Below, in pieces: positions 7,638 through 56,499 of a DNA stretch of 64,000 nucleotides. Source of the stretch: Pontederia crassipes. Its lineage: Eukaryota; Streptophyta; Magnoliopsida; Commelinales; Pontederiaceae. Location: contig CM060195.1 of assembly GCA_030549335.1 (NCBI GenBank), positions 8,029,001 to 8,093,000 on the forward strand, read 5' to 3'. Under the pieces are notes generated by a model, which saw only the letters and a program-made list of their open reading frames with translations, searched no databases and was not told where the DNA came from. The stretch's first letter is position 1. Each line of letters opens with the position of its first letter. A program made the position numbers and the translations under genes.

Positions 7638-10600
7638 ATGTCTGGCTTCAAGGTCGTCTTCAATGCAAGGTCCTACGACAACTGTTCCTGCGGTGGGCAG
7701 GGATGTGAGAAGTATGTCCCCTAATTAATCATGCATGTCCTCTTCCATTGCATAATTTTTTTTGGTATGATTAATTTCTTGATCATGCATGTCTCAATTT
7801 AATTTGGTTAATATATGCGTATATAGATGCAAGAGTGGTGGCACTTTCCTCAAGTTGGACAATTGCTCTTGCGGAGGAAAGGGATGCGAGAAGTAAGTGA
7901 CCAACTAATTAATTAATTAATTCCTCGCCTTTGATATCTTAGCATTTTGCATCACTACCATTTTTGTTTTGTTATTGTTTTACTAAATAATGAGAGCATA
8001 ATTAACTAATTAGTTATACTCGTATGCGTAGATGCAAGAATGGCACGTTCCTCCAGTTGGATAATTGCTCTTGCGGAGGAAAGGGATGCGAGAAGTGACT
8101 TAGAGGTGTTCAGCGGATCGAGTCGAGTCGGATCGGTGGTCGGGTCGGACCCGACTCGACCCGACTACGGATTGGTATTTTCCAACCCGAGTTGACCCGA
8201 CCCGACCCGATTGACCCAATATTTTATTTTTTTATTTTTTTCTTTTTTATTTAAACTTAAACTTATATTTGATTTTAAAATTTTAAAAAGAGTGAAATAA
8301 AATATTACAAGTGCAGAAATAATATTAAATTGTTTAAAATTTATTTTATGCTTTAAAATAAATATTTAATAATATCTTTTTATATTAAATAAATATAAAA
8401 AATAGTAAGAAAAAATTAAAAAAAATTTGGGTGGTCGGGTTATCCGACTACCAGACCCGACCCGACTCGAACCGAACCGGATCGGATTGGGTCGGATTTG
8501 CAAAATGCTAAAATATCAAAGGTGGGGCATTAAGTTAATTAATTACTAGAATTAATTAATGAATAAATTTCAATTGTCTACGTGTCATATTTAAATGACC
8601 ATTTATGTGTATTGATCGATTGCAGGTGCAAGAATTACTTGAGCTTGGACAATTGCTCTTGTGGAGGAAGCAGATGTGAAAAGTACCTACAATTACACAA
8701 ATTTATTAAATTATTCTTTCCTTCTATATGTTCAAATAGCTCCATTGTAGTACGTAATTATCGTTAACGTAGGAAATCATTCTTAGGTTTTGTATGTGCG
8801 AGTTGTAATGCTATTAATTATCAAACTATTAATGATTCAGATGCAAGACCGGCACCTTTCTGAGTGGGGATCCCTTCATCAGCTTTTCTGCCACTCCTTA
8901 CATGGGGTATGATCTGATTTATAATTTGATTTCCACCTTAATTCATTTCAAGTCTAACGTGCTTCCACTTCATATTTTTGGACCTAGGTATAAACTAGTG
9001 TATATTTTTGCGTATATTACTATATGTAATTTGTTTATTATATTATGTTAGGTCAGTTAATGAATATACTTTATGGAAGCATCTATATTATACTATACTA
9101 TAATATTTTATTAGCCCAAAGTCCGCCTTGATACTTACAAAACTAGATAATTTGTAGTCAACTCACTACAAGAAAACTGCCTTTTACCGATGGTCCTAAC
9201 CGTCGGTAAATTTGTCAGATCCGTCGGAAATCGCGATTTCCGATGGTTCTTTTGACGGACAATGATCGTGTGAAAAAGGCTCGTCACAAATTTTTTGCGA
9301 CGGTTTCTTCTGAACCGTCGGTATTACAGACAGTCTAGCTGGCGGGCGCGGCAGTCAAACGTTAAATATCGACAGTGCGAACCGTCAATATTATCGACGG
9401 GCAGGACCGCCGATATATATCGACGGTTTGAACCGACAATAGTATTGACGGTTCGAGCCGTCGATATTTATCGGCGGCTTAAACCGTCGACAGTATCGGC
9501 GGTTCATGCCGTCGATATCTATCGGCGGCTTGAACCGTGAAAACTATCGATGGTTTTAACCGTCAATATATATCGGCGGCTTGAACCGTCGACAATCTAG
9601 TATCGACGGCTTTACTCGTGGGCTACGACCGTCGATAATTGTGTACCGACGGATATAACCGTCGGTAAGTATCAAAAAAATTCGCTGAAAATTGTAATAT
9701 TTCAGCTGTTTCCGACGGTCAGGACCGTCGGAAACGTAAAAAAATTTAAAAAAAAATATTGAATTCACAGATAATTCTCAGATAATACAACACATTTGAT
9801 AGTTCAATTGAACGGCACATATTGAAATATAATCCATCACAGATTGAAATATCGTAATTCACATATAAAGCACATCACATCACATCACATCACAGATAGT
9901 TCAAACATAAAACATAATCCATATGTGTTGTGATAATGGTATCCAAACATGAAACATAATCCATAATTCACATATTCAATAACGTCAACTATAGTGGAAC
10001 GAGATAATGGAACGGCGTGCTTAATTCACAAATTGAACGGCATAACGTCTTCGTCACGACGAAGAGCTGAAGTTCAATTCGCATATCATCTTCGTCGTAA
10101 AACATCACTGCACAAAATTGAAAATAGAGTAAAAGTTATAACATATAAAATGCAAAAAAAAACATGAATTCAATTTTGAAGATGCGTAATCACAATCTAA
10201 TTGAATCTAAAATCTAAAATATAAATATATAATTTCAATTTAACATCAACATAATTTGATAAATAATTGATTGAGCATCTTCAAAATTGATAAATCTAGA
10301 AGATGCGTAAACTAACAATCTAACGCCGAATCTCAAAATCGAGCAAAATCGAGCGTAAACTAACAAGTTTATACTAAGTACTGACATTTACATGATCCAA
10401 CTATCTGCACTCCATTTTCGATGAAAACTTTGAAAGTCTACAGATCTAACTGAAAGGGATGAAGAGTAAAATCTAAGTTAGTGTCAAAGTGCATATGAAT
10501 CTAATGAGTACAATGATGCATCAGATTAAAGCAAATTCCAAAAATAATTATGTACTATATATGAATCTACCTCGGCGTCGTCGTCATTCAATTCGCCACG

Positions 10601-13600
10601 CATGGCACGCATCATTTTCTTCATTTCATCCCTGTTACGACGTTCACGTTCTTCGAATTTTTGTCTGACCTCTTCCTTAATCTTGATGGTCACCTGATCC
10701 ACAATTTCTTGCATAGTAGAAGGAGATGAACCTGAAGTACTTCGTCGACCATATCCAATATCTGTGTCACTCACAGAAGATCCAAGTCCGTAAATGCGAC
10801 CCTTCTTCACGCCGACGTGATCCGTCCAAAGTTGTCTTGGGGTCAACGGTGTGGTCCCCTCCTGCGTGGCTTGCGTAATATGATCAACTTCTTTTGTTTT
10901 ATAAGACTCCTGAAATATAAAGAAAATAATTAACTACAAACGACGACTAGGTGATCGACTGCAAAGTTTTGTTAATTAATTATTAACTTGCAATTTAGAA
11001 AAAAGTAAAGGCACAAAAATTTACATACATATGTCTCCCGGGCATAACTCGAGACCCATTCTTTGTTCTTCTTCTGATGGGTTCGGAGAAATATTTTGTC
11101 CTGAGTCGGTGGTCTACCCGTCTCTTTCTCCTGCAATGAGATAATATTTTAAAATTTGCAAATTACTTACCATTTTCTTAAAGTATAATATTTCGTCCTA
11201 AGTTCGAAGAAAGACCTTACCATTTTCTTAGCAATCGTGCTCGTGGATAGACATCCGCCCGAATGCAAGCACGCTCCCTGGTCGGACTCTCAACTGGTTT
11301 TTGCTTTTTCGCATTTCACTTTGTACTCCTCGGTGGACCACTTTCCTAACAATTCAATCCAAACGGCCTCGGGGATCCAATTGGGTCGTTCTCCATCAGC
11401 TCGAACTTCAGAAAGCATCGCAGACAATCTCTTTGAGCACCGAGAGTTAAAAGCCTTCCACATTTTTTTCGTATGCTCGGGCTCCCACCACACATCAGCC
11501 TGTAAGTGTTTAAAAATAATTAATGTGCATGATGAAGAAAAATATTAATGATGATGTTGGCTTCTAATGATACCTGAAATTCATTAAATAACATCTGTCT
11601 CGTGGCATAAGGAACTTCCCTCCATGTAAGTCACGCTTCAGTATACCTATGTCGCAATACTTTAGTAACTGCTGCAGCCGCTGGTTTCAACGGTACAAAT
11701 CTTGAAGGACACAGAATTATAAAATGTCATGGCTGAATCAAAGCATGAATAAGGATTCGATATACATAAAATAACACTTACCCTAAATTTCCATCTGGCT
11801 GCACGTATGCTTTGTAAACACGATTTGACGAAGCCTGGTCCGAGCCTTCCACGGAACAATGAGCTCTGACGGGTTGTTGTGGCAATTGTGTATCCAAGTC
11901 CGCAATATCAGCGTGAGAGGAAGGACCCGACGGAGAAGAACGTTCTATTATGCGAATGCCCGTGGCTGATCGAGGAGCTGACGGAGGAGAAGAACACTCT
12001 GTTATGCGAATGCCCGTGGCTGACGGAGGAGCACACAGAGTACTGAGAGCTCTAGGGACGACCGGTTCCTTTCCTTTGTTTTTACTTTTAACAAATCGAT
12101 ACATCTGCATAGTACAAAATTTATTACAAGTCAAATTCACAATTGACAAAAAATTCAAATGTCACAACGTCTCGACCTGACTATGTTCGGCTACTTCTTG
12201 TGTTGCATCTTGAGGAACGGAATTGTACGTATAACTCGAGAACCAATTCCTAATATCCGGAAGCGCTTATAAAAAATAAACAAATTAATTCGAATAAGCT
12301 TTTGCGAATGACTTCTTCTGATCATTATTTCAAACAAGGACACCTAATTGCTCCCTCCCGCTGAAATTGTAAAGATTGACAAGCCATAGTAACATAATAG
12401 TCAACGCCATCTATAAATTCTTGTGTCAAGCCTCTACGACCAGGATTATTTCTTTTGTACATCCATCGACGATCGTTCAATTATGACATAATGACTGCAT
12501 TATTTGCAAATCATAAAAAATTTCAGTCATACAAAATTGTATAAGGAAAGAAAAATGAATATGAAACAACTGAGGAAGAACAGATTGTTTAGCTAATGTT
12601 TACTAATCAGGTATAGAGATAGCATATAATAAGTATATATAACAGTTTTGGCCCTTTTTGCTCATGATCGTTTTCCATCAAACAAAAGGAGGAAAAAAAA
12701 TATTACAACTATAATTCTAAACTATAATTCTAAATATAATTCTAAATATTACAACTATAATTCTAAATTCTAAAAATTTCTTATTAGCACAAAAAGTCTA
12801 AAGCCGAACAGCAGCAGCAGATCGCAAGTGGATTAGTAAGATCTTTCATAACCAGTACGACACGTTTTGAATAACAACGTAACTACAGTACTCAACTTTG
12901 TTCTGGCCTATGAACAAAATATTCACAATAATAAATGATGGTGCAACAAAAATACCAAAGTTTCGTGGTCTGCATGAATACAACTAGTAGTAAGATTTGA
13001 TTAGAACTTTATGTTACTCTGTATATTGCTTTTCTCCATTTTTATTTCATTCAAGAACCTTGAACATGTTTATAAAGCCTTGATCTGAATAATTCATCTT
13101 TGTGGACGCACATGTCAAGTTACATGCAGCCAGGGAGTGGAGATGCACGCCTTAGAAGTAAACTGTGATTTACAAGCAATTCAGTGGTATATTCTCTCTG
13201 GCACAATGGCAACAAAAGGTTCTTTTATAAGTTTTCAAGATAAGATTCAGCAAATGGCATCATGCACCAAGTGTTCAAAAGAGCACTTCAAATTAACAAG
13301 GATTGATATTGTCGGCTTTATCCGCCGCTGCGCAAGGGCGGCCGGATCTGGCCGCCGCCACGCAAGGGCAGCCGGATCTGGCCGCCGCGCGCGGAGGGCG
13401 GCCGGATCTGGCCGCCGCACGGAGGGAGCCCGGATCTGGCCGCCGCCGTGCAAGGGCGGCCGGATCTGGCCGCCGCGCGCGGAGGGCGGCTGGATCTGGC
13501 CGCTGCACAGAGGGCGGCCGGATCTGGCCGCCGCACGGAGGGCGGCCGGATCTGGCCGCCGCGCGCGGAGGGCGGCCGGATCTGGCCGCCGCGCGCGGAG

Positions 13601-14828
13601 GGCGGCCGGATCTGGCCGCCGCGAGCGGAGGGCGGCCGGATCTGGCCGCCGCGCACGAATGGCGGCCGGTTCTGGCCGCCGCGCGTGAATGGCAGCCGGA
13701 ACTGGCCGCCGCGCGCGAATGGCGGCCGGATCTGGCCGCCGCGCAAGAATGGCGGCCGGATCTGGCCGCCGCGCGCGAATGGCGACCAGAACTGGCCGCC
13801 GCACGGAGATGGTGGAAGGAGAGAAAAATTATATATCAAAGGAGGCGGGGATCGGACCTACCTGCGCCAGAGATGATCGGCGGCGGAAGCTTCGGGCGGG
13901 AGGTGGTCGACGGCCGGATGAACGGCGGACGAAACGGGCGGCGGCGGACGGGCGTTCAAAACGTTCTAAGTAAGAGTGCGGTCGGGTTTTTATATAACCA
14001 CTTTTCGACGGTCAAAACCGCCGCAACATAAGTAAATATAATATTATATTAATTCACGTTTCGACGGCTCTAATCTACTGGAAAAACCGTCGATAGTTTC
14101 GACGGTTTTCAAACCGTCGAAATATCGACGGTTTTAGCCGTCGGTAGTTTTGACGGTTCTTTAAACCGTCGAAATATCGACGGTTTTAGCCGTCGATTCC
14201 CTTAATGATAATTTTTAAAAACATCGACAGATACATAGGTTGTGTAAATTATAAATTTCCATTTTCGACGGTTGAGGCCATCGAAAAAAAGTAAGGTAGA
14301 ATATTTTATTTAAATACTATCGACGGTTATGACCGCCGAAATATCGACGGTTGCTTTGAACGTCGCAAATTTCGACGGTCAAAACCGTCGATAAGTTCAA
14401 TAATTATGCGCAACCAGTCTTGAAATTTTTCGACGGTTCAGACCGCTGGAAGTTTCGACGGTTAAATAAATCGCCGAAATTATCGACGGTCATAACCGTC
14501 GAAGTATAAATATTTTCGACGGATTCTTCCGACGAATTTATTACCGTCGAAATTTTAGATGGGTTAAATCGTCGAAAATTATCGGACGAAAATATCGACG
14601 GTTTGGAAGATCCGTCGAAAAAACCGTCGATATTTAAGACGAATTTCGGGCCGTCGAAAATGGACCGTCGGAAATACGACTTTTTCTTGTAGTGACTCAT
14701 GTTTAATTTTACAGTTTTATTTCTTACAAAGCATGTGGTCTAATTTATTTATAAAGATATATATTAATTAATATATGGGATTTATCTTTATTTCATTAAT
14801 GAATTATTGCAGGCCTGGATGCAATTGA
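7638..14828 (+). CDS. Metallothionein-like Cys-rich modular protein, copy A
   Basis: Six exons fit GT-AG splicing: 7638-7711, 7827-7892, 8032-8094, 8626-8682, 8841-8906 and 14813-14828, giving 113 residues. The product starts MSGFKVVFNARSYDNCSCGG. It then has four C-x-C-x4-C-x2-C modules (CSCGGQGCEKCK and variants; the fourth is CSCGGSRCEKCK), each shared between neighbouring exons, followed by a non-repeat tail (FISFSATPYMG) and PGCN. There are 17 cysteines. All introns are phase 2, so whole modules can be added or dropped in frame. No signal peptide is evident. High Cys, Gly and Lys content suggests a cytosolic thiol metal-binding protein, but this is inference and the pattern fits none of the plant metallothionein types 1-4. 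Two oddities: exon 3 is unique to this copy and its donor reads GTGACT, so unspliced RNA meets TGA at once (68-residue product); and the last intron is about 5.9 kb because it holds a CACTA element. Confidence 0.7.
8099..8502. mobile_element. hAT/MITE-like insertion with GGTCGGGT-type ends in copy A intron 3
   Basis: It begins 'agaggtgttcagcggatcg', resembling the 'aggggtgttca' terminus of plant hAT-like MITEs. It continues with inverted (gtcgggtcggacccgac) GC-rich repeats, an AT-rich core, and a second set of cgacccgactcgaaccg repeats. The opposite 'tgaacacct' terminus and a target duplication are not visible, so the 3' end seems lost. It follows directly on the exon 3 donor and may affect splicing there. 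Confidence 0.4.
8503..8548 (-). repeat. Inverted copy of the intron 2 segment
   Basis: The phrase 'tgcaaaatgctaaaatat' onward is the reverse complement of intron sequence that lies in forward orientation near 7920-7957 in this gene, and near 54700-54740 in copy C. Exon 3 therefore sits between two inverted intronic repeats of about 40 bases. Confidence 0.7.
9180..9745. repeat. CACTA subterminal repeat array, left
   Basis: The words cgacggtt, aaccgtcg, atcggcggc and their complements recur every 15-30 bases in both orientations, making many small palindromes. Such arrays are the known binding sites of TNPA-type proteins in CACTA elements. Open frames here (for example 9295-9540) are by-products of the repeat. 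Confidence 0.85.
10570..12478 (-). pseudogene. CACTA-encoded Transpos_assoc + Transposase_24 gene, decayed
   Basis: On the minus strand the gene appears to open near 12478 with RRWMYKRNNPGRRGLTQEF then CQSLQFQREGAIRCPC, the Transposase-associated N-terminus typical of TNP2. A stop soon follows and the TNP2 core is absent. Further blocks have consistent splice borders: a Pro/Ser-rich exon at 11778-12115 with a repeated SATGIRI unit, a block near 11580-11690 (PYATRQMLFNEFQ), one at 11225-11500 (WWEPEHTKKMWKAFNSRC, then SDQGACLHSGGCLSTSTI), one near 11030-11130 (EKETGRPPTQDKIF, then LRTHQKKNKEWV) and one at 10570-10910 (LWTDHVGVKKGRIYGLGS plus a charged coiled-coil-like tail EEVRQKFEERERRNRDEM). 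These are Transposase_24 hallmarks. At least two blocks contain an in-frame stop, so a full product is unlikely. Confidence 0.75.
12480..13315. other. CACTA interior, non-coding
   Basis: AT-rich interior of the CACTA element between its gene and its minisatellite. No protein or structural RNA pattern is seen. A small tandem repeat of 'ataattctaaa' lies near 12708-12770. Confidence 0.5.
13318..13808. repeat. GC-rich 30-bp minisatellite in the CACTA element
   Basis: About 16 copies of a 30-base unit based on ggcggccggatctggccgcc followed by gcgcgcggag. The best-ordered copies lie at 13560-13800, where two units fill 60 bases exactly. The core is an almost perfect palindrome around gatc. Because the unit is a multiple of three, frames stay open on both strands, giving several overlapping Arg/Ala/Gly/Pro-rich frames; I treat these as artefacts. 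The array lies just downstream of the element's minus-strand TATA box, in the position of a 5' UTR or first intron. Confidence 0.9.
13987..13995 (-). promoter_or_regulatory. TATA-like box of the CACTA gene
   Basis: On the minus strand this reads TATATAAAA, at the inner edge of the right subterminal array and upstream of the Transposase_24-type gene. A GC-rich leader follows, with a possible donor CAG|GTAGGT near 13855-13865. Position and orientation fit the element's own promoter; no start site can be proven. Confidence 0.5.
13998..14680. repeat. CACTA subterminal repeat array, right
   Basis: Cgacggtt/aaccgtcg words recur in both orientations up to the right terminal repeat, mirroring the left array. 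They likely serve as transposase-accessory binding sites. The open frame at 14404-14700 on the minus strand is a by-product. Confidence 0.85.
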
Positions 14829-30853: not shown

Positions 30854-30856
30854 TTA

Positions 30857-31345: not shown

Positions 31346-31393
31346 AAATAATAAGTCTGCTATAACATTTGATATATTCTGAGGATGACTGTC

Positions 31394-32207: not shown

Positions 32208-33005
32208 ATGTCTGGTTTCAAGGTCGTCTTCAGTGCAAGTTCCTACGACAACTGCTCCTGCGGTGGGAAGGGATGCGAGAAGTATGTCCCCTAATTAATC
32301 ATGCATGTCCTCTTCCATTGCATAAATTTTTTGGTATGATTAATTTCTTGATCATGCATGTCTCAATTTAATTTGGTTAACATATGCGTATATAGATGCA
32401 AGAGTGGTGGCACTTTCCTCAAGTTGGACAATTGCTCTTGCGGAGGAAAGGGATGCGAGAAGTATGTGACCAACTAATTAATTAATTAATTAACTAATTA
32501 ATGCCACACCTTTCATATTTTAGCATTTTGCATCACTACCATTTTTGTTTTGTTATTGTTGCTGTTCCGAAATAGTGAGAGTTGAATTATTACTAGAATT
32601 AATGAATAACTTTCTATTGTCTACGTGTCATATATAAATGTGCGTTGATCGATTGCAGGTGCAAGAACTACTTGAGCTTGGACAATTGCTCTTGTGGAGG
32701 AAGCGGATGTGAAAAGTACCTACAATTACACAAATTTTATTAAATTATTCTTTCATTCTATATGTTCAAATAGCTCCCTTGAGTGATAATTACTGTAGCA
32801 AATTATTCTTACATTGTCGATATGTTCAAGCCATGATATACTATTAATAATTAAACTACTCCTATCCATACTAATAATTATTTTAAAAAAGATTACCATT
32901 GAATAATAATTAGTGGTGTTGCTTAATTAATGATTCAGATGCAAGACCGGCACCTTTCGGAGTGGGGGTCCCTTCGTCAACTTCTCTGCCACTCCTTACA
33001 TTTAA
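32208..33005 (+). CDS. Metallothionein-like Cys-rich modular protein, copy B (shortened C-terminus)
   Basis: Exons 32208-32281, 32396-32461, 32659-32715 and 32939-33005 give 87 residues with GT-AG, phase 2 introns. The product begins MSGFKVVFSASSYDNCSCGG and has three C-x-C-x4-C-x2-C modules (CSCGGKGCEKCK twice, CSCGGSGCEKCK once), 12 cysteines in all. It lacks the extra module of copy A. Where copies A and C read TPYMG and splice to a PGCN exon, this copy reads TPYI and stops at 33003-33005, because the donor region has changed. The old last exon is still visible at 33153-33168. The loss removes only the last five residues, including one Cys, so the protein may still work. Confidence 0.72.
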
Positions 33006-33152
33006 TTACGTGTGGTATATATGATCTAATTTCATTTGATTTCCCACCTTCATTTTGAGTTTCTTTACTACCATAAGTTCTTTACTACCATAAGTTATCT
33101 TTATGATATATGTGGGGTAATTAATTAATTAATGATTACTTAAATATTGCAG

Positions 33153-33168
33153 GCCTGGATGCAATTGA
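33153..33168 (+). pseudogene. Orphaned last exon of copy B
   Basis: The phrase 'tattgcag' plus 'gcctggatgcaattga' is the same acceptor and PGCN-stop exon used in copies A and C, but the upstream exon now ends in a stop. The 3' flank with a tctaaataaa poly(A)-like signal (near 33232) follows and is probably still used. Confidence 0.7.
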
Positions 33169-37149: not shown

Positions 37150-38080
37150 AGTTATGTAACAACCCAAAAAAAAACCAAATCAAAATGGCCAGCTAATAAC
37201 CATAATCTCATAGTTGTGGATAAACTCAAAAACCTATCCAAATTAGTGCCGCATGATTCTTAAGAGACAGAATCAAGTAATGATAATTAAGATAATAACT
37301 GCCCCATATAAATTTCTCCTGATAGAAACCAAAAGTCCCTCCTCTGTTCTTCCTCTTCTCTCTCACGTATAGCCATACTCTTGAACGGAGTCCCTATTGA
37401 TTTTTGTCGTCTGGAGTGACGATCGACCGCTGCCTTGACGTTTTGGTACATACATCTAGTAGTTTTTGTTTCGTTTCCTCACAAGCCATGATCCGGGTCG
37501 ATCTGTAGGTGGTGAACGGCTAGGAAGTGGAGGGATCGCACACGAGCAGCAAGGAGGAAACGTCCATTGATTCAAACCAAACAGATCGAGGCAAGGATCA
37601 ATCGCGAACAGACGTGGGTGAATTGAAATCACCTTGCATAAATTGTATAGATTGATTTCTCCTATTTTCTGAATGAATCATGTTAACCGAATCAAAGATT
37701 ATGGAAGCCTCACGAAAAGAATCGGATTTCTTTGTTCTTCTTGATTTTGTGATTGTTTGATTGATTTCTTATAGGAAATTGATTTCTATTGTTGTTGATC
37801 TGCTTGAATGATTGTTAGAATGTAGGATTTAATTTATGATGATGTTCTGCCATGGATTGAAGAAATTTTCGTTTTGAAATCGGCTGAAATCCGCCGCCGT
37901 CACGGTCGTGACATCTCCCTAGCATACCCATGCCGCCTCCATCATGGTCATGCCGCCCATTTGGCACGTCTGTTCCATCGCTCGACAATGCTAAGTATAA
38001 GATCGTTCGGCACCGGCCGACCGAGCTCCCAACCCATCACGACCATGCCACTCCATTGGAACGCCCGTGCCATGACCTGA

Positions 38081-41000
38081 TGACGCATGCAAAATATAAC
38101 ATATTTTACTTTATTATTTTAATTATTATTTCTGTAATTTGATCATGGCATGTATCATTTTTAATCATAATTATGGATTTATTGATTTTAATTATTAATG
38201 CTTTGAATATTTTAACTAAGGAGAGATTTACTTAATTTTTATAATTATTTTGCAAGAAAGCCAAATTAACGGATGGATTAATTCAGTCACAGTGTAATTG
38301 AGATAAGGGGTAAAATCAGATTTGGATATCATTTAGAAGCTTTGGGCGTAAAGGATAATTGCAAAGCTGTTATCAACCGTAATCCACATCACAAAGAGAT
38401 TTGGGCAAAAGAATTACATGTCGGCCGAGATGATCACAGCCAGGGCGTAAAATTGAGTTTATTATCTTCATTGGATAAAGTTACATCTAACTTCCTTGGG
38501 GGTAAAAGCAATGCAACTTGATTTTTTTGGGCGTAACATGACGTAATACATGCATACATGGTCGAAACTTATTGGTCAATAATACGTAATTGTGGGCATA
38601 ATGATTGAAGCAACTTATCATTTTGGCCGAGATTAGAAGAAGGGAGTAAGATAAAAAGAGTTTATTATTTTAGGGGTAATGGTTAAAAGAACTTATCATT
38701 TTGACTGAGACCGTATCAACTTTTATCCAGTGAATTTAAATCCAACCGTAGGATTTACGCCCATAATCAACATGAAGACTCCTATAAATAGAGGATGAAA
38801 CCATCAATCCAAGGTGTGCTTTGAATTGTGGTTTTCTTCTACAGTTGAGTCATGAGCTCTGTAGGCTACGATCGAAAGAAAAGAGGTGCGACGGTTGAAA
38901 GTTGATCGTGACTCTGATCAAGTTCGAGAGACTGCCGACTATTTGCCCGTGATCCGAATGCCTTCTTGTTGTTCTTATCATGGGTGTAATTCTTTCGATT
39001 TTTTTTATTATTTTTATTATCTCTCCAATATTTCTAGGATGAACTTCATGTTTTTAAGATTATTATTTTAGGAGATTATTAATTGAAGGGAAATTATTTG
39101 GACCCTATTTTATTTGTTTTAATCTTTTCTGATCAATTATTAATTAATTGCGCTCAATGCTTTTATGTTAGTTAATTGAATTTCTGAATTAGGCTATACC
39201 AATTTGTGTAGTGTTTAATTTCAGAATTCATGATACTACTTTTAATTAATTTTATATGAAATTAATAATTGATATAAATTTGATAACTAGTGTGTGAAGA
39301 ATCAAGTTTGTGTGGTCTGTTAATCTATACCAGATTGTGGAGTGATTAATAGTCTAGGGAATCTAATTTAATGCATCTTAATTTTAATATGATTTGATGG
39401 GATGCTAGTTGTGGATATTACAATTCTTTTAAATTAAGATAGTTTTGCATGTTTAGGTTGAGGGATGCCAATCGTGGAGACCGCAAGTTAATCATGTAGA
39501 TTACTATTTTAGGGAAACTCTAATCCATCTTTAAAAATTAAATTTATCTTTTATGGATCAAATATTTATCCTGATCTATTTTCATCGTAAGGCCTAATTT
39601 CAACACCATTATCTTATCTTATTATCTTATTTTCTTTATTTTATTTTATAATTACAAAATTTATCTTCAAAATCTATGTTTTTCCTATTCACAATCCACT
39701 GCCTTGATCCACTTAGCTACATCTGCCCTTACCCCCGCACTGGTTTAAGTCTCTATCTATGATCAGATCCTTTCAGAACCCTCCCTATGGCTGCTATAAA
39801 AGATAAGCTTTTCCTTATTAATTTATAAAATTAGATATTAAATTAGTAATATTCCTCGTGGGTTCGACACTCTTTATTCCTATTACTATATTACTTGAGC
39901 GACTAGTGCACTTGCTAGCGATTTTATTTTGCTACATCATTTTACGCATCAAGTTTTTGGCGCCGTTGTTGGGGAATATTCTATTAATTAATTTCTAATT
40001 TTTATGAATTATGAGATGTAAATAAAATTGTAAATAATTTTTTTTGTAAATAAATTTTATGTAAATTCTTCTTTAATTTAAATATGTATTGCTCAACTAT
40101 TTGTTTTAATTACTTTTATTTGTGTGAATTAACATCTTTCTTTTTGCAGATAAAAGTCACAAAAATATCAATTGATTTTGGATTAAAGTTTGTTGACTTT
40201 CGAACAATACTCTATTCTATATCTTTTTTTATGCCGAGTGGATTTTTCTGATTAATTGGATAATGAATTTTTACCTGTGTTGACTTATTTTTTTACGACC
40301 GTGATTAATTTTTTTCAGCTTTACTAGAAATATCGCCATGATTTGCGCCCCGTTATGTAAACCTTCTGAGTTTTAAACTTTCTATTTTGCGGCCATCATG
40401 TTTTAATTTTCTAAACTTTTGCACCTTGGGTTTAATATGTGATCATTTTTTTTATTTAATTGTGTATCGGCATGATGTTATATTTCTGATTGGCGCCCAA
40501 GCGTATGATCTAATTCATGTCGATTGCTACTTGGTTCTGACATCAAATTATACTATTACTTTGGCACCCGTAACCTTCTCACTTTGTTTTGCACCATGAT
40601 ATATGCATGACGATACAGAAAGTTGATTTGATTTGTTTCGGTCGAGAGGTTAATAGCTTTCTATTTGGCACTCGTAACTCCTGAATTTTCTGAACATTTT
40701 TTGTTTTGCGCCATATTTGGTTTTGGGTTGGACATGTAATCTGACTACTTTGACTAGTTTGTTAGTAGTCTTACGGCCAGAATTTTTAAATCTCCAAATA
40801 GATTTTGTTTTCCTTTTCGGCAGTAACATACATTAATGATATTTAAGAACTTTGGCGCCCAACTATGATCACGCTAGTTAAATCTCTCTAAAATATTTCT
40901 ACATTTCTTTTACGCCTTGGGTGGGTTTAATGTTTCAATTGCTGATTCATTTCTATTTCGGCTTGTGGGTTTAATGTTTAAGTTGATGATTCATTTCTAT

Positions 41001-44000: not shown

Positions 44001-46498
44001 TTTTATTGACCATATTAAGTACTCCTTGAGACTTAAAAAAAATGTGTGAAAAAAATTAGTGAATTTGTTTTTGAATAAAGTTATGTGCAGGTACAAAAGT
44101 GTTATTCGAAACCAAGGTGTGTTCAGGTAATTAAATTCATAGGGGTTTATGCCTGACGACCTAACGACAATTGCTTTGGGATCCGTCGATCGAAAACCTA
44201 CTACAAGGACCATCTTGTGGAATACAGGAGTACTGAATCATGGCCAAGTTCGAACTCTTCATTAAGAACTTTGGTTGTTCGGGCAAGTAAACTCGAGGGG
44301 TGTCTTATCACCTATTGTCCTAAGGCCATTTGGTCTGGGAGTCATCAGTCTAAAGCTCGTTACATGGACTTCCTTGTGCAATCCTGCTTAAAGATTATAA
44401 ATTTTAAAATGATTGAAAATAAAAGAAAAAAAAGAGAAAAAAAAGAAAAGTTTTAAGCTCAATTAGTACTTATGTGTTCAATATTAATGCTATTATTTGA
44501 CAGACTATTTATTTTTCTACAAGGCTGAATTTGAGATTGTTTAAATTTGTGTAGCATTTAGAATCTCTATGAAGCTAAATGCAAGGAAAGTGGTAAGATG
44601 CTGAGTAGTAGGTGTGTAGAAGAACTGTGTGAGAAAATTAGTTAGTTGACAATATGGAAGCTATGATGGAACCCTTGTTCTTGAGCTTTGCTTTGAATTT
44701 TTGTTTGAGGACAAGCGAGACTTTAAGCTTGGGGGAGTTTGATGCATGCAAAATATAACATATTCTAATCTATTATTTTAATTAATATTTCTGTCATTTG
44801 ATCATGGCATGCATCATTTTAAGTCACTTTTAGTTGTAATTCTGGATTTATTGATTTTAATTGTTAATTCTTTGAATATTTTAATTGTGAATGGATTAAT
44901 TAAATTTTGATAACTATTTTGTAGGAAAAGCTGAGTACACTGATTTATCATGCCAGTCGCAAGTCGTTAGCTTATGTTTATCGGCTGCAATTCAAGTACA
45001 AAGAGATTATCAGTCGTAAAAAACATTTAATTCTATCATACGATGCAAAATCGCTAGGCGCAAAACACACTTGGTTATAATTAGCCAATATTATATCATG
45101 ATAAAGTTGTTATCGGCTGAAATACAAATAAGAAGTTTTATCATTAGGCGCAAAACATCATCCTTAACCAAGGGAGATGGAGATTATCGACTGAGAACTC
45201 CAACGCCAAAATAGAAGTTTTTTATCTTTAACCAATATTTATCTATTGCGGCCGATATCTTTGGGTGCAAAACTCTATCATTAACCAAGGATGGAGACTA
45301 TCGGCTGTGATCATCAATCGATCATTGGGTGCAAAAGACAATATTAACAAAGTTTGGTGACCGAGAACGAAGAAAGTTTATCATCAGGCGCAAAACGGAT
45401 AACTTTTTATCATCAACCAAAGTTTTATCGACGACATAAAGTTTATCTTGCGAAGTTAAAAGTCGTATGATATTTATGACCGTGATTAACCACAGTTGAG
45501 TCGAGCTTTGAAGTGTGGTTTTATACCACAGTTGAGTCGTGAACTCTGGAGGATATGATCGAAAGGAGAGAGGTGCGACGGTTGAAAGTTGATCGCGACT
45601 CTGATCAAGTTCGAGAGGCTGTCGATTATTTGCCCGTGATCCCAAGGCCTTCTTGTTGTTCTTATTTTGGGTGTAATTCTTCTGATTTTCTTTATTATTT
45701 TTATTATCTCTCCAATATTTTTAGGATGAACTCTATGTTTTTAGGATTATTATTTTAGGAGATTATTAATTGAAAGGAAATTGATTGGACCCTATTTTAT
45801 TTGTTTTAATATTTTCTAATTAATTATTAATTGTGCTCAATGTTTTTATGTTAGTTAATTGAATTTCTGAATTAGGCTATACTAGTTTGTGGAGTGTTTA
45901 ATTTCAAAATTCATGATACTAATTGATATTATATGAAATTAATAATTGACATAAATTTGATAACTAGTGTGTGGAGAATCAAGTTTGTGTGGTCTATTAA
46001 TCTATACCAGTTTGTGGAGTGATTAATAGTCCAGGGAATCCAATTTAATGCATCTTAATTTTAATATGATTTGATGGAATGTCAGTTGCGGAGACTTCAA
46101 CTCTTATTAAATTAAGATAGTTCTACATGCTTAGGTTGAGAGAAGTCAGTCGTGGAGACTGCAAGTTAATCATGTTAGATTACTTTAAGGAGACTATAAT
46201 CCATCTTTAAAGATTGAATTTATCTTTTATGTTTCAAATATTTATCCTAATATATTTTCATCCTAAGGCCTAACTTCAACACCATTATCTTATCTTATCT
46301 TGTTTTCTTTATTTTATTTTATGATTAAAAAACTATTTCCAAAAATCCATATTTTTCCTCTATTATTAATTTATAAGATCAAATATTTTATTAATAATAT
46401 TTCTCGTGGGTTCGACACTCTTTACTCCTATTTACTATATTACTTGAACGACTAGTGCACTTGCTAGCGATTTTATTTTGCTACATCATTTTACGCAT
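38081..46498 (+). mobile_element. Non-coding Ty3/gypsy-type element (LARD-like), nested
   Basis: LTRs at 38081-39951 and 44740-46498 start tgacgcatgc/tgatgcatgc and end 'acgcatc'. After the left LTR, 'ttggcgccgttgttgggga' is a primer site for tRNA-Asp, as in Athila/Tat-type elements. Before the right LTR is the purine tract 'gcttgggggagtt'. A probable target duplication is CCTGA/CATGA (one difference). The 4.8 kb interior has no gag-pol frame, so it looks like a large retrotransposon derivative that depends on a relative. It lies inside the left LTR of the 37155-53652 element and is therefore younger than it. Confidence 0.82.
40190..43520. repeat. Field of recurring 'gcgcccrtaat' and 'cggccgagat' words inside the LARD
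   Basis: Short words such as 'ttgcgcccgtaatt', 'ggcgcccaa', 'tttcggccgagat' and 'tacgcccgtaa' recur dozens of times at irregular spacing without a reading frame. The same words occur in the element's own LTRs, for example 'ttgggcgtaac' and 'ttggccgagat' around 34900-35200 and 38400-38700. This looks like an old, diverged short tandem array. Confidence 0.65.
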
Positions 46499-49400
46499 CT
46501 CATGATTCTTAGTCGGGTACTCAAGCACCGAACCGGTCGACTGATCCCTTTGAATCGGTCGACCGCCCTCAAACACCGTCACGGTCGTGCCCCCTTATGG
46601 CACGCATGTGCCATCTCCTTTGAGTCAAATGTCCGTGCCACTCCACCAGCTTGACCGCACCATTCCCATCGGCACAGCCGTGCCCCTATGCTGTCACGGT
46701 CGTGCCAAGTTACAGAACGGCCCTTTTTTACTTTCATTCTCTTTCCTTGATTTTGATCTGATCATTGCTTGTTGTCTTATGATTAAGTGTGATTATGATT
46801 GATTTTAATTCCATATTCCCCACTGAGATCCATACATGATTAAGGCATGAATCCTTTTAATGATTTACTCTCCTACTAATCTTTTGGTCTCCATTGCATG
46901 AAGAATAGGAATAACAAGTTTCTAAAGTGGTTAATAAGATAAGATGGAAGATGAATAATGGATTGCCAATCCAAACCAAGTGCTTCAAAATAAGGATCAC
47001 TCCCTTGGTCATGATTTGATCGCACAAGGTTGTATCATTTGCTCGGCATACCCCAAAAGTTTAAAGACACCTAAAGTCATCAAGTTTCTAAGCATGATGC
47101 AAGAATAAGAAGTATGTACAAGTAAAACAAGCATGAATGTCAAGTCAAATATCATTATGATTTATGCTAGGATTAGTAATCCTACTCTTGATTTCAAGTT
47201 TATTATGTCTCATCATGATCTTACTGTTTATCGAGATTTATTGGCTCTTATTATTCTAGTGATCCCATGCTCAATCCCTGGCCAAGATAAGTTATGTCAT
47301 CTTTCTGATTTATTTTATTTAAAGTTATGCATTGTATACTCTTACTGATTTTTCACTAGGCTGTAAAGCTTACGGGAGGACCTCTTACCCTATGTTTAAT
47401 TTCCACATGATCAGCTCAGTGATAGTGTTGAGTTGGTGTGTTGCGACGATGCCCGGGCGACTATAAAGCACATGAACAACAGGGCTTATTTAGTTACTTA
47501 TTTTTCCATCCGCATTTATGAACCTATGATGTAAATCTTATGGTGTTCATTTAGAGATGATGTAGTCACTTTTCTAGACTTCCGCAACTTATGTTAATTT
47601 TCTTTATTTTATTATTTTTCAGCTGACGTGTCTCAGTTCTTGACTGAGATATGATCAATAAGATGGTCAAAGTCATAGCATTCGTAGCGTCTCTAGATTG
47701 ATCTTCGTCACATGGCGTGTGTTGATTTGGGGGCGTTACATTTATGGTATCAGAGCCTAAAGTTAGGACTCTCTTGACGTCCTATTGTATAGGATAGTAT
47801 GATAATGGTTCATGTGTTTTCGCCGAGCAGTTGCCACACCCTCCACGGTAAAGTACAAGTAAAGCCTTTCTACTTTGTGTTATTCTTTATTAATATATTG
47901 ATGGATATTTCATATGAGTGGTTGATTCCTAAGGAGGTTATTTGTATGATAAGAATCAACCTAAATTGTGTTAGTGATTATACAAAAGGTTATAAAAGTT
48001 ATGAAAAGTGGGAAAGAATAGGTAACAGGCATGTGGATAATCATTATCTACATGAAAAATCAATCTTACAGATATTTAAAGAATAAATATTATAAATAAT
48101 ATTTTTCATCTCTTTCATGATCGTCTTATTCATGGACTTCTTGTGCTGACTACTGCAGTATGAAGAGGAAAATGAGTAGGCATATCAGTTGCAAAGAGAT
48201 GTAGAAAAAAGGAGAAAATTATAGGAGTAAATAAAAGATTCGCCTCACACAACAAGTATGTGTGAGATGATATGAAACCACGCATGTTTAAGTTATGATT
48301 TATTGTTATGACTCATGTAATCCCATGGATTTACCAAAATAGGGGTTTAATAAATTATCTTATATGTTTACATTGATAAGTATGGACCCGTAATGCTTGT
48401 TGCGTCTTAGACTTCATATGGCCTCTATATTATATTGATAAAGGTCATAAGCAAATCCAAATTAGTTATAAGAATTCCTAGTCATAGTACCTTATGTTGA
48501 AAATAAGAATTAGAATTATTAATTATGTTCAAGTTATGTAATATTAGTTAGACAAGAGTTTAAGTATTAGTGAGTTTCCCAAGAGTTATGTATAATGTAG
48601 GAATAGACAAATATAGAAGTTCAAAGGATTCAGAAGTCACATTGGTTTGAATAAATGTTAGAAGAAATTATCAATAAGTAAGTGACTATCTGACTTAATC
48701 AAACATCTAGATTTAGCACACTCATACACATATGTACATATAGCATAAATACTTATATATATATATATATTAATTAATTAATTAACATAGTATAGTATAG
48801 TATATAGTAGACTTGAAATTTTATTAATATGAAGTATATTTTTATATAGTCATTATTAAAGAATGAATTCTCTATCATCATAGTGTAAATATATATTTCC
48901 AAGATAGACTAATATGGTTGATAAAAGAAAGATAAGAACAGGTAATGCATGAAAGGGTTGAATGAATGGAATTAATTTTGAAAAGATTTAAAGTCTCTTA
49001 ACTGAGGTATGATTAAGAAGGATATGAGCCCCCGACCATTTAGTATTAAAAGATAAAAACATCAAGGGAGCAAATTTTAGAAAGTATGGGGGGGTTGAGG
49101 TAAAGTATGAGGAATTTTATAAGTCCCCAACAAAGTTATTGGAGAAGCAAGTTATGCACTTGAGAAGAATGATTATGAAGTAAACTATAATTTTTTAATA
49201 GATTTATTTTGACTATGGATATATTTATTAGTTTTCATAATAATGTCTGAATCGTATAGGGTAATTAATCATATAATCATGATTGATAGTTCAAGAGGGA
49301 AAATAAAACCTATATATGTTTAGATAAAGGATTAAGCAAGCCATCAGATGATACATAAAATATCCTCTAAGATGCAAGATATAAGATGATACATAGAATG

Positions 49401-50679: not shown

Positions 50680-50683
50680 AAAA

Positions 50684-50745
<62 letters not shown>
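50680..50745. repeat. (AAAT)n/(AAT)n microsatellite
   Basis: About five AAAT units run into about sixteen AAT units, within the decayed Ty3 element interior. Confidence 0.95.
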
Positions 50746-53652
50746 GGAATGATAGTAATACATGTGATGTCGAAATTATAAGTGAACGTAATTTTAGAAG
50801 AGTAAATATGAGTTCTTACTCATTATGTCTAGATATACCAAGGTGATAAATAATAATAATAATAAGGAGAAGAATGTTCACTAACACTCCTTTTTAAGGA
50901 GGTTATGGACCTAGTTAATTATAATATTATACATCTAGATGATAGTAGAATATGAAATGCAAGGTAATAAAGACGATCGCTTATATTGATTGAATTTTCT
51001 TATAATAATAGTTATCATTTGAGAACGAGACACCATTTGATTATATTGGCAACCTTGTTGTTCACCCACTCAATTGGGTGAAATAGGCAGAGAGAAAATC
51101 ATGAATGAAGAGAATATGCTAAGAAGATAGAACTAATTAAGAAAAGGGTTAAAAGTAAAAGAGCTACGCAAACGAAGGTGTACAAAAGCATATCATTAAT
51201 GCTACTGAAAGTTTCCTATATGAAAGAGGTAATAGGTGAATAAGAGTGATTAGTCCTTGCCATGAGAGACGATTTAAATATTGAAGTTAGTTGACAAGGT
51301 TGCATATAGGCTGACACTACCCTCTTCTTATAGAGAAGTGCATTACGTATTTCTCGTGTTCCTGCTCAAGAAATACAAGCATGATAATGTTAACATCATT
51401 TGGATTAAGAGGCCTAATCTAGCCGCAGACCTCACCTTTGCCAAGTGTCTGACTCATATTATGGAACGAAAGGTGCAACGTCGAAAGAATAACATGTACC
51501 CATGGTCCAAGTAGCCTCGCGGTCCACCACGACGAAGAGGTAACATGGAAGCTCGAGTTGGAAATGCGCAAAGAGTTTCTGCATCTTTTCAAGTCCTCCA
51601 CTTCATGCAAAATTCGAGCACGAATTTTCTTTTAAGGAGGTTATAATGTAACAACCCCAAAAAAATCAAACCAAATCAAAACGTCCAACTAATAACCATA
51701 ATCTCATAGTTGTGGATAAACTCAAAAACCTATCCAAATTAGTGCCGCAGGATTCGTAAGAGAGGGAATCAATAATGATAATTAAGATAATAATCACCCC
51801 ATATAAATAATTCTTGATAGAAACCAAAAGTCCCTTTCCTCTATTCTTCCTCTTCTCTCTCACGTACAGCCATACTCTTGAAGGGGTTCCTGTTGATTTT
51901 CGTCACCTGGAGTGATGATCGACTGCTGCCTTGTTGTTTTGGAACATACATCTAGTAGTTTTTGTTTCGTTTTCTCACAAGCCGCGATCCAAGTTGATCT
52001 GTAGGTGGTGAACGGCCAGGAAGTGGAGGGTTCGCACACGAGCAACAAGAAGGAAATGTCCATTGATTCAAATCGAACACATGTTAAACGAATCAAAGAT
52101 TATGGAAGCCTCACGAAAAGAATCGGATTGCTCTATTCTTATTGATTTTGTGATTGTTTGATTAATTTCTTGTAGGAAACTGATTTCTATTGTTGTTGAT
52201 CTGCTTGAATGATTGTTAGGATGTAAGATTTAATTATGATGATGTTCTGCCATGGATTGAAGAAATTTTTGTATTGAAATCGACTGGAATCTGCCGCCAT
52301 CACGACCGTGCCATCTACTTGGAACGCCCATGCTGCCTCCGTCATAAAGTAGTGCCGCCCATCTGGCACGCCCGTTTCATCGCTCGACAACGCTAAGTAT
52401 AGGATCGGTCGACACCGGTCGATCGAGCTCCCAACTCGTCACAGTCGTGCCACCTCATTGGCACGCCCGTGTCATGACCTGATTCTCAACCGAGCACCCA
52501 AGCACAGAACCGATCGACCGCCCTCAAACACCTTCACGGTCGTGCTCCCTTATGGCACGCCCGTGCCATCTCCTCTGAGTCCAACACCTGTGCCACCCCA
52601 CCAGCTTGACTGTACCATTTCCATCAGCACGGTCGTGCCCCATGCTATCACGGTCGTGCCAACGTCCATCCTCTTTCCTTGATTTTGATCTGATCATTGT
52701 ATCTTTGCCTTATGATTAAGCATGATTATGATTGATTTTAATGCCATATTCCCCACTGAGATCCATACCTGATTAAGGCATGAATCCTTTTAATGATTTA
52801 CTTTCCTACTAATCTTTTGGTCTCCAGTGCATGAAGAATAAGAATAATAAATTTCTAAAGTGATTAATAAGATAAGATGAGAAATAAATAATGGGTTTGT
52901 CAATCAAAGCCAAGTGTCTAAAGATAAGAGTCACTCCCTTGATTATTGTTTGATCACTCATTGACCGCACAAAGTTGTATCATTTACTCGGCATATCCCA
53001 AGAATCTAAAAGCACCTAAAGTCACCAAATTTCTAAGCATGATGCAACAATAAGAAGTATGTACAAGTAAAACAAGCACGAATGTCAAGTCAAGTATCGT
53101 TATAATTTATGTCAGGATTAATAAGCCTACTCTTGATTCTAAAATTATTATGTCTCATCATGATCTTACTGCTTATCGAGATTTATTGGCTCTTATTATT
53201 CTAATGATTCCATGGTCAATTCTTGGCCAAGATAGGTTATGTCATCTTTTTTATTTATTTTATTTAAAGTTATGCATTGTATACTTTTACCGGTTGCCCA
53301 CTAGGCTATAAAGATTACGGGAGGACCTGCTCCCATGTGTTTGATTTTCATAGGGCTAGGTCAGTGGTGGTGTTGAGTTGGTGTGCTGCGACGATGCTCA
53401 GGCGACTATAAGGCCTATTTAGTTACTTATTTTTCCTTCTGTATTTATGAACATATGATGCAAACATATTCATTTAGAGATGTAGTCACTTTTCTACACT
53501 TTCGGAACTTATATTAATTTTTTTATTTTATTATTCTTCCATTGACGTGTCTCAGTTCTTGACTGAGATATGGTCAATAAAATGATCAAACATTCGTAGC
53601 GTCTCCAAGTTGATCTTCGTCATGTGGCGTGAGTCGATTTGGAGGCGTTACA

Positions 53653-54415: not shown

Positions 54416-56499
54416 ATGTCTGGCTTCAAGGTCGTCTTCAGTGCAAGGTCCTACGACAACTGTTCCTGCGGTGGGCAGGGATGCGAGAAGTATGTCCCCT
54501 AATTAATCATGCATGTCCTCTTCCATTGCATAAATTTTTTGGTATGATTAATTTCTTGATCATGCATGTCTCAATTTAATTTGGTTAACATATGCGTATA
54601 TAGATGCAGGAGTGGTGGCACTTTCCTCAAGTTGGACAATTGCTCTTGCGGAGGAAAGGGATGCGAGAAGTAAGTAACTAATTAATTTTTAATTAATTAA
54701 CTTAATGCCCCCACCTTTGATATTTTAGCATTTTGCATCACTACCATTTTTTTTTTGTGTTAATAATGCCTTGAATCTGAACCCAATTGGTCCTCCTACA
54801 TAGTCAGGCGCTTCAGCAGAATTCCCCTACGGGGGTCTCGACCGAGACCTATCCTTGTAATCATCATTATTCTATAAGAGCCGCCGTCGTTTTTCCTCTT
54901 CGTGTTCTTCTGTATTTCGTGCGATCCCTCTCTCCCCTTTTTCGTAACATTTTGTTATTGTTACTGTTCCGAAATAGTGAGAGTTGAATTATTACTAGAA
55001 TTAATTAATGAATAACTTTCAATTGTCTACGTGTCATATATAAATGGCCATTTATGTGCGTTGATCGATTGCAGGTGCAAGAATTACTTGAGCTTGGACA
55101 ATTGCTCTTGCGGAGGAAGCGGATGTGAAAAGTACCTACAATTACACAAATTTTATTAAATTATTCTTTCATTCTATATGTTCAAATAGCTCCCTTGAGT
55201 GATAATTACTGTAGCAAATTATTCTTACATTGTGGATATGTTCAAGCCATGATATACTATTAATAATTAAACTACTCCTATCCATACATCATTGTTTTTT
55301 TTATATTTTAAAAACAAAAGATTACGATTGAATAATAATTAGCGGTGTTGCTTCAGATGCAAGACCGGCACTTTCCTGAGTGGGGATCCCTTCGTCAACT
55401 TCTCTGCCACTCCTTACATGGGGTATGATCTATTTCAATTTTCCACCTTCACTTTTAGTTTTTTACTACTATAAGTTATCTTTAAGATGTATGTGGACAG
55501 TGGCGAAGCCTGGCTTCACATATAATTTTACTACTTTTAGTATAATAATTAACATAAATATAAAATTTTCATAAATTTATTTTTCGATTACAATGTATAA
55601 AAGTATTAGTTTTAACAACAAAGGTTATATCGACTTTAATTCTAAATCCGAAAAAATTATGTATACATATTTTAAGCACGAAATGAGATCATTATAAAAT
55701 CAAGATTAAGTGCACGATCATAAAATGCATTCTCCTATTGATATAAATGATATAAATAAATGATATTTACCATGAAATTATATAATTTAAACTAATTGGG
55801 AAGAAATATAATTGTTAAATATACTTATTATATTTTGTTATGAAATATAATAATACTTTACTAAAAATTTAAATATATGATAAACAGAGATGTCTAATTT
55901 AAAAGAGACACATAATATTTTCATGATAACTAGTATAATGTCCTCCATATTTGTTACGCAATAAAATAAATTATATTTATTATCAAGCAAAACAAACGAT
56001 GTGGTAACATATTTAAATAATGGGTTGAAATATATATATATATATATATATATATTATCTTAATAAAATATAAATGACACTTATTATTTAAATTATACAA
56101 TTTAAACTATTGGAGATAAAAGGTAATTACGAAATGATATTTAAGCAAATAATTGACCAAGCAAAGAGTTATAGTTAGTAGCTGGCTTCGAACCCGCACC
56201 TTCTACATATTATCCTTGCACTCTACCACCGAAGGAAGATTAAAAAAAAAATTATTCGCTTTATCCAGTGGGTGGTGTTAATTAATGAATTATACCTTAT
56301 TAGCATATAAACTATAAAGAAAGTTAAATCGTAAATTAAGTAGGCGTACCTTGCGACTAACAAAATTAGTTACTTTGTAACTAACAATTAGAGGGAAATA
56401 CTACTAATTTTACAAGTTTGTGTACTCTTTGTGTTCTATGGTTATAGTGTACGGATGTTTGATTAATTAATTAATTATTGCAGGCCTGGATGCAATTGA
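54416..56499 (+). CDS. Metallothionein-like Cys-rich modular protein, copy C (reference copy)
   Basis: Five exons, 54416-54489, 54604-54669, 55075-55131, 55357-55422 and 56484-56499, all with GT-AG phase 2 introns, give 92 residues. The protein begins MSGFKVVFSARSYDNCSCGG, carries three C-x-C-x4-C-x2-C modules (CSCGGQGCEKCR, CSCGGKGCEKCK, CSCGGSGCEKCK) separated by short SGGTFLKLDN or NYLSLDN linkers, then TGTFLSGDPFVNFSATPYMG and PGCN. There are 13 cysteines. No signal peptide or membrane segment is seen, so a cytosolic site is likely. This is the cleanest of the three copies: every junction is canonical and no stop intervenes. Metal binding is inferred from the paired Cys; no family assignment is certain. 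Intron 2 holds a solo LTR, and intron 4 (1.06 kb) holds further repeat. Confidence 0.82.
54758..54949 (+). mobile_element. Solo LTR of a copia family, in copy C intron 2
   Basis: Starts tgttaataatgcc and ends ttcgtaaca, with an exact TTTTG duplication on both sides (54753-54757 and 54950-54954). Copy B has the uninterrupted intron sequence, giving the empty site. It is the same family as the LTR at 63488-63695, in opposite orientation. Confidence 0.92.
55490..56440. repeat. Repeat-rich intron 4 of copy C
   Basis: The intron departs from copies A and B after about 55490 ('acagtggcgaagcctggcttc', like the 'cagtggcgg' termini of some plant DNA transposons). It contains a (TA)n run at 56031-56055. 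On the minus strand a segment near 56180-56245 has tRNA-like promoter boxes (ggtggtagagtgc and gggttcgaagcc, spaced about 30 bases), suggesting a tRNA-derived SINE or a decayed tRNA. No clear ends or target duplication are found. Confidence 0.4.

Follow-up and report, generated by a model that had tools for sequence, protein, structure and literature searches.

The + strand of a 64,000-nt stretch of Pontederia crassipes DNA (the window; GCA_030549335.1, contig CM060195.1, positions 8,029,001 to 8,093,000, forward strand) carries three tandem copies, A, B and C, of one small cysteine-rich gene, which raises the question of what kind of protein it encodes and what the differing number of modules per copy may mean. 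In each copy we could rebuild from the DNA an open chain of exons separated by GT-AG introns (Table 1), and in these models every coding intron is in phase 2 (five introns in A, three in B and four in C). Internal exons measure 57, 63 or 66 nt. Exon 1 and each middle exon hold CxCx4C, and the fourth cysteine comes from the exon that follows, as its first complete codon. The resulting module has the consensus DNCSCGGxGCEK/C (the slash marks the exon junction), the cysteine order CxCx4CxxC, and recurs once per 19-22 residues.

Table 1. Features of the three gene copies and of the repeats and inserts within them (window coordinates)
Feature	Positions	Strand	Basis or remark
A, TATA-like box TTTAAATAG at 7528 and 5' leader	7528..7637	+	
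A, exon 1, 74 nt, start codon and module 1 (first three Cys)	7638..7711	+	rebuilt chain
A, exon 2, 66 nt, module 2	7827..7892	+	rebuilt chain
A, exon 3, 63 nt, extra module, A only; donor GTGACT	8032..8094	+	rebuilt chain
A, repeat-like stretch after exon 3, with no equivalent in B or C	8095..8529, boundaries approximate	.	nature inferred
A, exon 4, 57 nt, module 4, G to R change (SRCEK)	8626..8682	+	rebuilt chain
A, penultimate exon, 66 nt, Cys and tail, no new module	8841..8906	+	rebuilt chain
A, CACTA-type DNA transposon in last intron, 5.5 kb	9164..14694	.	ends CACTACAAGAAAA / TTTTTCTTGTAGTG, triplet ACT on both sides
A, last coding exon, 16 nt, PGCN stop	14813..14828	+	rebuilt chain
B, exon 1, module 1	32208..32281	+	rebuilt chain
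B, exon 2, 66 nt, module 2	32396..32461	+	rebuilt chain
B, exon 3, 57 nt, module 3	32659..32715	+	rebuilt chain
B, exon 4 coding part, protein end PYI	32939..33005	+	ends in TAA, 33003-33005
B, counterpart of last coding exon, downstream of stop	33153..33168	+	
C, exon 1, module 1	54416..54489	+	rebuilt chain
C, exon 2, 66 nt, module 2	54604..54669	+	rebuilt chain
C, solo-LTR-like insert in intron 2; TGTTAA start, GTAACA end	54757..54949	.	nature inferred
C, exon 3, 57 nt, module 3	55075..55131	+	rebuilt chain
C, exon 4, 66 nt, Cys and tail	55357..55422	+	rebuilt chain
C, last coding exon, PGCN stop	56484..56499	+	rebuilt chain

The rebuilt chains bear out the initial annotation, which had described a three-copy family with one module per exon and phase-2 introns, and had counted four modules in A and three in each of B and C; for A we regard the fourth module as uncertain (see below). 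Its statement that internal exons of 57, 63 or 66 bases each add a module holds for the lengths and for the middle exons, but not for the penultimate 66-nt exon, which has no module of its own and supplies the last cysteine of the preceding module and a tail. On its + strand the window contains 12 instances of the CxCx4C codon pattern, ten of them inside exons of the three copies; 200 mononucleotide shuffles gave 1.6 on average and never more than 6. As a contiguous sequence, the full four-cysteine motif is absent from both strands of the unspliced window, as expected if the fourth cysteine sits in the next exon. Module exons are symmetric (phase 2-2), so that gaining or losing one by duplication or by a splicing skip keeps the frame; the earlier proposal that module number can change without loss of frame is confirmed to this extent.

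The copies are not equally well preserved. Copy C is intact in the model (predicted product of 92 aa, 13 Cys), A is predicted to encode 113 aa with 17 Cys, and the predicted product of B stops early, before the last coding exon (87 aa, 12 Cys). Aligned with exon 2, the extra module exon of A shows four substitutions and a gap of 3 nt, and it looks like a copy of that exon. Its donor, GTGACT, is weak (the donor of exon 2 is GTAAGTGACC), an in-frame TGA would follow if the intron were retained, and the last intron of A holds a 5.5-kb element that we take to be of CACTA type from its end motif; the fourth module of A is uncertain on these three grounds. The same observations, and the early stop in B, could mean that only C is a working gene while A and B are on their way to pseudogenes, the difference in module number then being degeneration and not useful modularity. 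We consider this quite unlikely as the whole explanation: in the model, the donors after the 57-nt exon of all three copies match the consensus at 5 of 9 positions, just as the donor of A exon 3 does, the reading frames have remained open, and pN is lower than pS. Still, A and B do show signs of decay, which we counted against the metallothionein-like reading developed below. The solo-LTR-like insert of C is related to a sequence at 63488-63695. Repeated blocks between B and C were viewed by eye as candidates for further genes, with frames of at least 45 codons listed, and were set aside.

The coding sequences vary little where the cysteines are concerned. DNCSCGG and CEKC are invariant in an alignment of eight module sequences, which stand for 9 of the 10 modules (the second module of B was left out). 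Among the 86 codons shared by the copies, three cysteine positions vary, all silently (TGT/TGC). Over the same codons pN was lower than pS in all three pairs (0.039/0.096 for A-B, 0.024/0.096 for A-C, 0.024/0.115 for B-C), with Fisher p values of 0.15 (not significant), 0.03 and 0.01, respectively. Intron 1 matches the exons in conservation, with 0-2 of 114 sites differing between copies, and the low exon divergence may therefore partly reflect gene conversion.

The copies had also been credited with near-identical promoters. This stands for the leader between TATA-like box and ATG, with TTTAAATAG lying 109-111 nt upstream of the ATG in all three, but not for the 400 nt upstream, where 21 of 335 aligned sites differ in A-C, 56 of 330 in A-B and 66 of 364 in B-C, with an additional 72-140 gap columns in the pairwise alignments. 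Seed-type expression, suggested by CATGCA motifs in the promoters of A and C, was rejected: the motif is abundant throughout the window (44 occurrences vs 11 in mononucleotide shuffles) and its presence in a promoter is thus uninformative. On the + strand of the three promoters we found no metal-response-like site of the form TGCRCNC.

The predicted products are of 9.0-11.8 kDa, with cysteine at 13.8-15.0% of residues and no histidine. A Kyte-Doolittle scan gave no signal- or membrane-like segment (maximum 19-residue mean 0.23-0.39), which suits reduced cytosolic thiols. The products are thus small, cysteine-rich and, by the hydropathy scan, devoid of a secretion signal, as a functional metallothionein would be. 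Small cysteine-rich proteins encoded in tandem copies are also common in plants as disulfide-rich defence or signalling peptides, a role that appears most improbable here given an N terminus without signal-like hydrophobicity in that scan and the reduced state of a cytosolic product. Each product contains 9-10 Phe/Tyr, unlike animal metallothioneins, a point against the metallothionein-like reading.

Profile searches set the family apart from known ones. Nothing was matched at the curated cut-off, either in Pfam with the three copies and a 66-aa module block or in NCBIfam with copy C only. The plant metallothionein families PF01439 (types 1-3) and PF02068 (type 4/Ec) were absent from the matches of A, B, C and the module block at E up to 10. 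The best metallothionein profile was the general PF00131 (E values of 0.54 with C, 1.9 with B and 0.26 with the module block), which was not listed for A and otherwise scored far under its 23-bit cut-off. The comparison of copy C with metallothionein profiles, which the initial annotation had proposed as a check, thus gave no match at cut-off and supports its view that the family stands apart from types 1-4 of plants. Control sequences were recognised for MT2a (1.7e-30) and Ec (2.5e-26), whereas a type-3 plant metallothionein reached 19.3 bits, just under the cut-off of 23, and Pfam can therefore miss real plant metallothioneins. Sequence searches of the PDB gave weak matches only (best E 0.035). 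This best match, to KDPG aldolase (0.047 in Pfam), does not conserve the cysteine pattern and was dismissed as chance; other weak matches in Pfam, NCBIfam or the PDB were to SoxZ, the general metallothionein family and DnaJ. The last of these brings to mind a thiol-redox protein or DnaJ-like zinc chaperone, whose cysteine-rich region has CxxC-Gly repeats: phmmer weakly aligned the module block with 2ctt, a cysteine-rich domain of DnaJ (E 1.3), and CEKCKSGG resembles the CxxCxGxG motif. Such a protein is very unlikely to be encoded here, because the spacing differs, every module has a CxC, CxxCxGxG repeats are not found, and the Pfam DnaJ zinc finger gave no match at E up to 10.

In the parts of the papers available to us, plant metallothioneins resemble these products in being small and probably cytosolic (in oat, 10-17 Cys in 63-89 aa; PMC10603854), and the tandem arrangement has a parallel in the clustered metallothionein genes of rice (PMC3491035). 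They differ in having two or three cysteine domains and a linker (PMC10603854) where the copies repeat a single CxCx4CxxC, and in having 0-2 introns in oat (PMC10603854) and two in the type-1 genes of rice (PMC3491035), compared with 3-5 coding introns in our models. Hence Pfam match, cysteine arrangement and intron number all separate the family from types 1-4. A literature text search for module peptides and cysteine-spacing strings gave no match, which is weak evidence, and no such family was described in the titles and abstracts on plant, modular or new-type metallothioneins. Its novelty is provisional, judged from profiles and published descriptions.

A pattern search gave 24 matches in genome contigs, of which one was confirmed, and two in viral contigs, of which none was. 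The sole confirmed look-alike is a 13-residue loop in the RNA polymerase subunit Rpo3 of a Thermoplasmata archaeon (L001), whose DNCSCGGKGC-x2-C agrees with the module nearly letter for letter. It is, however, a single loop inside a 270-aa subunit, and the agreement is limited to the loop. DNCSCGGKGCDLC of this protein aligns with the CDACDGDGQCEFC loop of the Rpb3-type PDB chain 8hil_C, a loop type that presumably holds zinc; a literature search on RPB3 zinc ligands found nothing. None of the protein's four best archaeal matches in the PDB has the cysteine loop, which is thus not general in Rpo3. The resemblance, together with the strict module spacing and the hydrophobic spacers (FLKLDN, FLQLDN, YLSLDN), would fit a zinc-structured repeat protein other than a metallothionein, with tight single Zn(Cys4) loops of the RPB3/Rpo3 type and segments between them acting as a scaffold for contacts with proteins or nucleic acids. 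We regard this as unlikely: 13 residues agree, and the search that brought them up was seeded with that very stretch, for which reason Rpo3 was also rejected as a homologue; a profile of eight modules found nothing in the PDB at E up to 10; neither Pfam nor PDB sequence searches linked the copies to the subunit, with its cysteine loop in the RpoA/D fold; and no partner is known. Convergence is the likelier source of the resemblance.

We therefore return to the metallothionein-like reading, favoured because splice signals and phase are consistent, the motif is invariant, cysteine codon changes are silent, pN is below pS, the products suit reduced cytosolic thiols, the Rpo3 look-alike aligns with an Rpb3-type loop and exon 3 of A resembles exon 2, and weakened because no metallothionein profile matched at cut-off, Phe/Tyr content is unlike that of animal metallothioneins, intron 1 is conserved, the A-B contrast in pN and pS is not significant and the Rpo3 loop is not general. 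We put at roughly 55% the probability that the trio are plant genes for a small cytosolic metallothionein-like protein, and a Zn/Cu-binding protein of a lineage-specific plant family is the most likely product. Transcription, splicing, metal binding and a buffering role are what we infer. The four cysteines of each module would bind one zinc or join a small Cu/Zn-thiolate cluster, and the protein's capacity to buffer or store metal would be proportional to module number. Exon duplication could add or remove modules, and splicing could skip them. A more specific version, in which a metal-binding family beyond the four metallothionein types has one mononuclear Zn(Cys4) loop per exon and the number of phase-2 exons sets capacity, through duplication and possibly alternative splicing at weak donors, is at present only tentative.

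Changes of this kind are reported outside plants, where the likeness is one of gene organisation. Gastropod metallothionein domains have about nine cysteines and are larger than the module described here. According to the available parts of the sources, genes or alleles of gastropods and of the tunicate Oikopleura (OdiMT2) differ in how many cysteine domains or repeats they hold, in Oikopleura through tandem duplication or loss, while gene structures vary by lineage and some are intronless (PMC11101346, PMC8283569); the Oikopleura repeats, with 12 Cys, are larger units than ours (PMC8283569). In AcMT1 of Agaricus crocodilinus a piece of exon plus intron was duplicated internally, adding a cysteine-containing stretch, but the gene is fungal, the stretch is C-x-C-x2-C-x5 and the introns are of about 50 bp (PMC12508003).

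If the modules bind metal, the Pontederia trio would be a plant case of the modular metallothionein evolution reported, in the portions available, from molluscs, tunicates and fungi (PMC11101346, PMC8283569, PMC12508003), with a single symmetric exon as its unit. It would also offer a natural set of three- and four-module proteins for studying how metal capacity and selectivity scale, and would imply that types 1-4 do not exhaust the metal-thiolate proteins of plants.

We identified three direct copies (A, B and C) of one small Cys-rich gene on the forward strand of the window. Their exon chains, rebuilt from the DNA, gave open GT-AG models for all copies with every coding intron in phase 2, bearing out the three-copy, phase-2 family proposed in the initial annotation. 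The modelled products have 17 Cys in 113 residues (A), 12 in 87 (B) and 13 in 92 (C). They carry four, three and three modules, respectively, each a CxCx4CxxC unit whose fourth Cys is the first full codon of the next exon. The first CxCx4C lies in exon 1, together with the start codon. In the middle exons (66, 63 or 57 nt) the first Cys completes the preceding module and the next CxCx4C follows. The earlier proposal of one module per exon thus holds for these exons, but not for the penultimate 66-nt exon: it contains no new module, only the Cys that completes the final one, followed by a tail (CKTGTFLSGDPFVNFSATPYMG in C). In A and C, PGCN comes from a further coding exon of 16 nt. DNCSCGG and CEKC were invariant in an alignment of eight module sequences, representing nine of the ten modules. 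The CxCx4C codon pattern occurs 12 times on the forward strand of the window, ten of them in exons of the three copies; in 200 mononucleotide shuffles it averaged 1.6 occurrences and never exceeded 6.

The frame of copy C is open from start to stop. Copy B has a TAA ahead of the last coding exon, whose counterpart is still discernible. Copy A has an additional 63-nt module exon, alignable to exon 2, with the donor GTGACT where exon 2 has GTAAGTGACC. Read through unspliced, it meets an immediate stop (after GCEK); if it is skipped, a 92-residue frame stays open. Counted as matches to CAG/GTAAGT, this donor scores 5/9, as do the 57-nt exon donors of all three copies, so its use is possible but uncertain. 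The transposon in copy A has subterminal inverted repeats at either end, and several frames are open on both strands of its tandem array.

Over 86 shared codons (excluding A's exon 3 and last exon), pN was lower than pS in all three pairs (Fisher p: A-B 0.15, A-C 0.03, B-C 0.01), and Cys codons differ at three positions, silently in every case. Intron 1 differs between copies at 0-2 of 114 sites. In the second and third introns and the 3' UTR, A diverges from the others by 10-19%; between B and C the divergence is 1-5% for these two introns and 15% for the 3' UTR. Evidence for purifying selection is modest, because this patchy divergence suggests gene conversion among copies.

Pfam searches with A, B, C and the module block (a 66-residue piece of the family), including the metallothionein profile search of copy C, gave nothing at or above the cut-off. 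Neither NCBIfam (copy C only) nor PDB sequences gave a convincing match (best PDB match KDPG aldolase, E 0.035). Of three plant metallothioneins entered as Pfam controls, two were strongly recognised and the type-3 one fell slightly below the cut-off, so a divergent plant metallothionein could escape Pfam and the lack of a match is not decisive by itself. The argument is strengthened by the order of the Cys residues and by the exon plan: in excerpts of the respective papers, oat metallothionein genes have 0-2 introns (PMC10603854) and rice type-1 genes two (PMC3491035). The separation from plant types 1-4 made earlier was supported by the profile searches, the Cys order and the exon plan. By these criteria the family would provisionally lie outside types 1-4, yet would work in a metallothionein-like manner. 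It may well already be present in plant proteomes as 'uncharacterized protein'; its module peptide and spacing strings do not occur in the literature text searched, which is weak evidence of novelty.

Pattern matches were confirmed in 1 of 24 cases in genome_contigs and 0 of 2 in viral_contigs. The sole confirmed look-alike in these collections, FRDNCSCGGKGCDLCTV, is from a Thermoplasmata MAG (L001), in a protein matching RNA polymerase subunit Rpo3. The PDB alignment pairs it with the loop CDACDGDGQCEFC in 8hil_C, an Rpb3-type chain. The four best archaeal PDB chains have no cysteines at this position. BLASTP of the family protein against the L001 protein gave 28.9 bits, with agreement mostly in the loop, and we read this likeness as probable convergence. 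The RPB3 loop presumably holds zinc; literature searches for zinc in this loop did not turn up a description of it. The probably convergent Rpo3 loop suggests that the module motif could form a one-zinc site.

Elsewhere in the window, third-position GC of the PPR gene drops steeply 5'-3', from 0.74-0.80 to 0.40, a gradient familiar in monocot genes. The window as a whole has the character of plant nuclear DNA, and the gradient points to a probable monocot source. The repeated stretches between B and C, inspected by eye, have no obvious long reading frame in common and are perhaps remnants of a tandem duplication unit or old transposons. The 180-codon ORF containing 2706-3141 matched no Pfam family and is perhaps a retroelement remnant.

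Features of the window and their positions
Feature	Position	Content or location	Basis or remarks
Copy A	~7.5-15.2 kb		
CACTA-type transposon	9164-14694	last intron of A	CACTA-type ends, triplet ACT flanking both sides
Tandem array	13298-13845	within CACTA-type element	~30 bp repeats, 15 overlapping reference matches
Copy B	~32.0-33.5 kb		
TAA of B	33003-33005		
Last coding exon counterpart of B	33153		
Related segment pair	2706-3141; 33839-34266		86% identity
Two- or threefold repeats	34542-39951; 44740-47740; 51646-53652	between B and C	~81-93% identity
Copy C	~54.3-56.8 kb		
Short solo-LTR-like element	54757-54949	intron 2 of C	
Relative of this element	63488-63695	near window end	81% identity, opposite orientation
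tRNA-Lys (CTT) gene, reverse strand	56949-57021	-	between copy C and PPR gene
PPR gene, intact, 977 codons	57113-60046	E motif, DYW deaminase domain	Pfam

The family proteins have no strongly hydrophobic segment. Excerpts of published work describe changes in module number in gastropod and tunicate metallothioneins (PMC11101346, PMC8283569) and internal duplication in a fungal one (PMC12508003). We infer the expression, splicing, metal binding and role of the proteins; the best reading is a cytosolic metal-thiolate protein whose capacity would rise with the number of exon-encoded modules.
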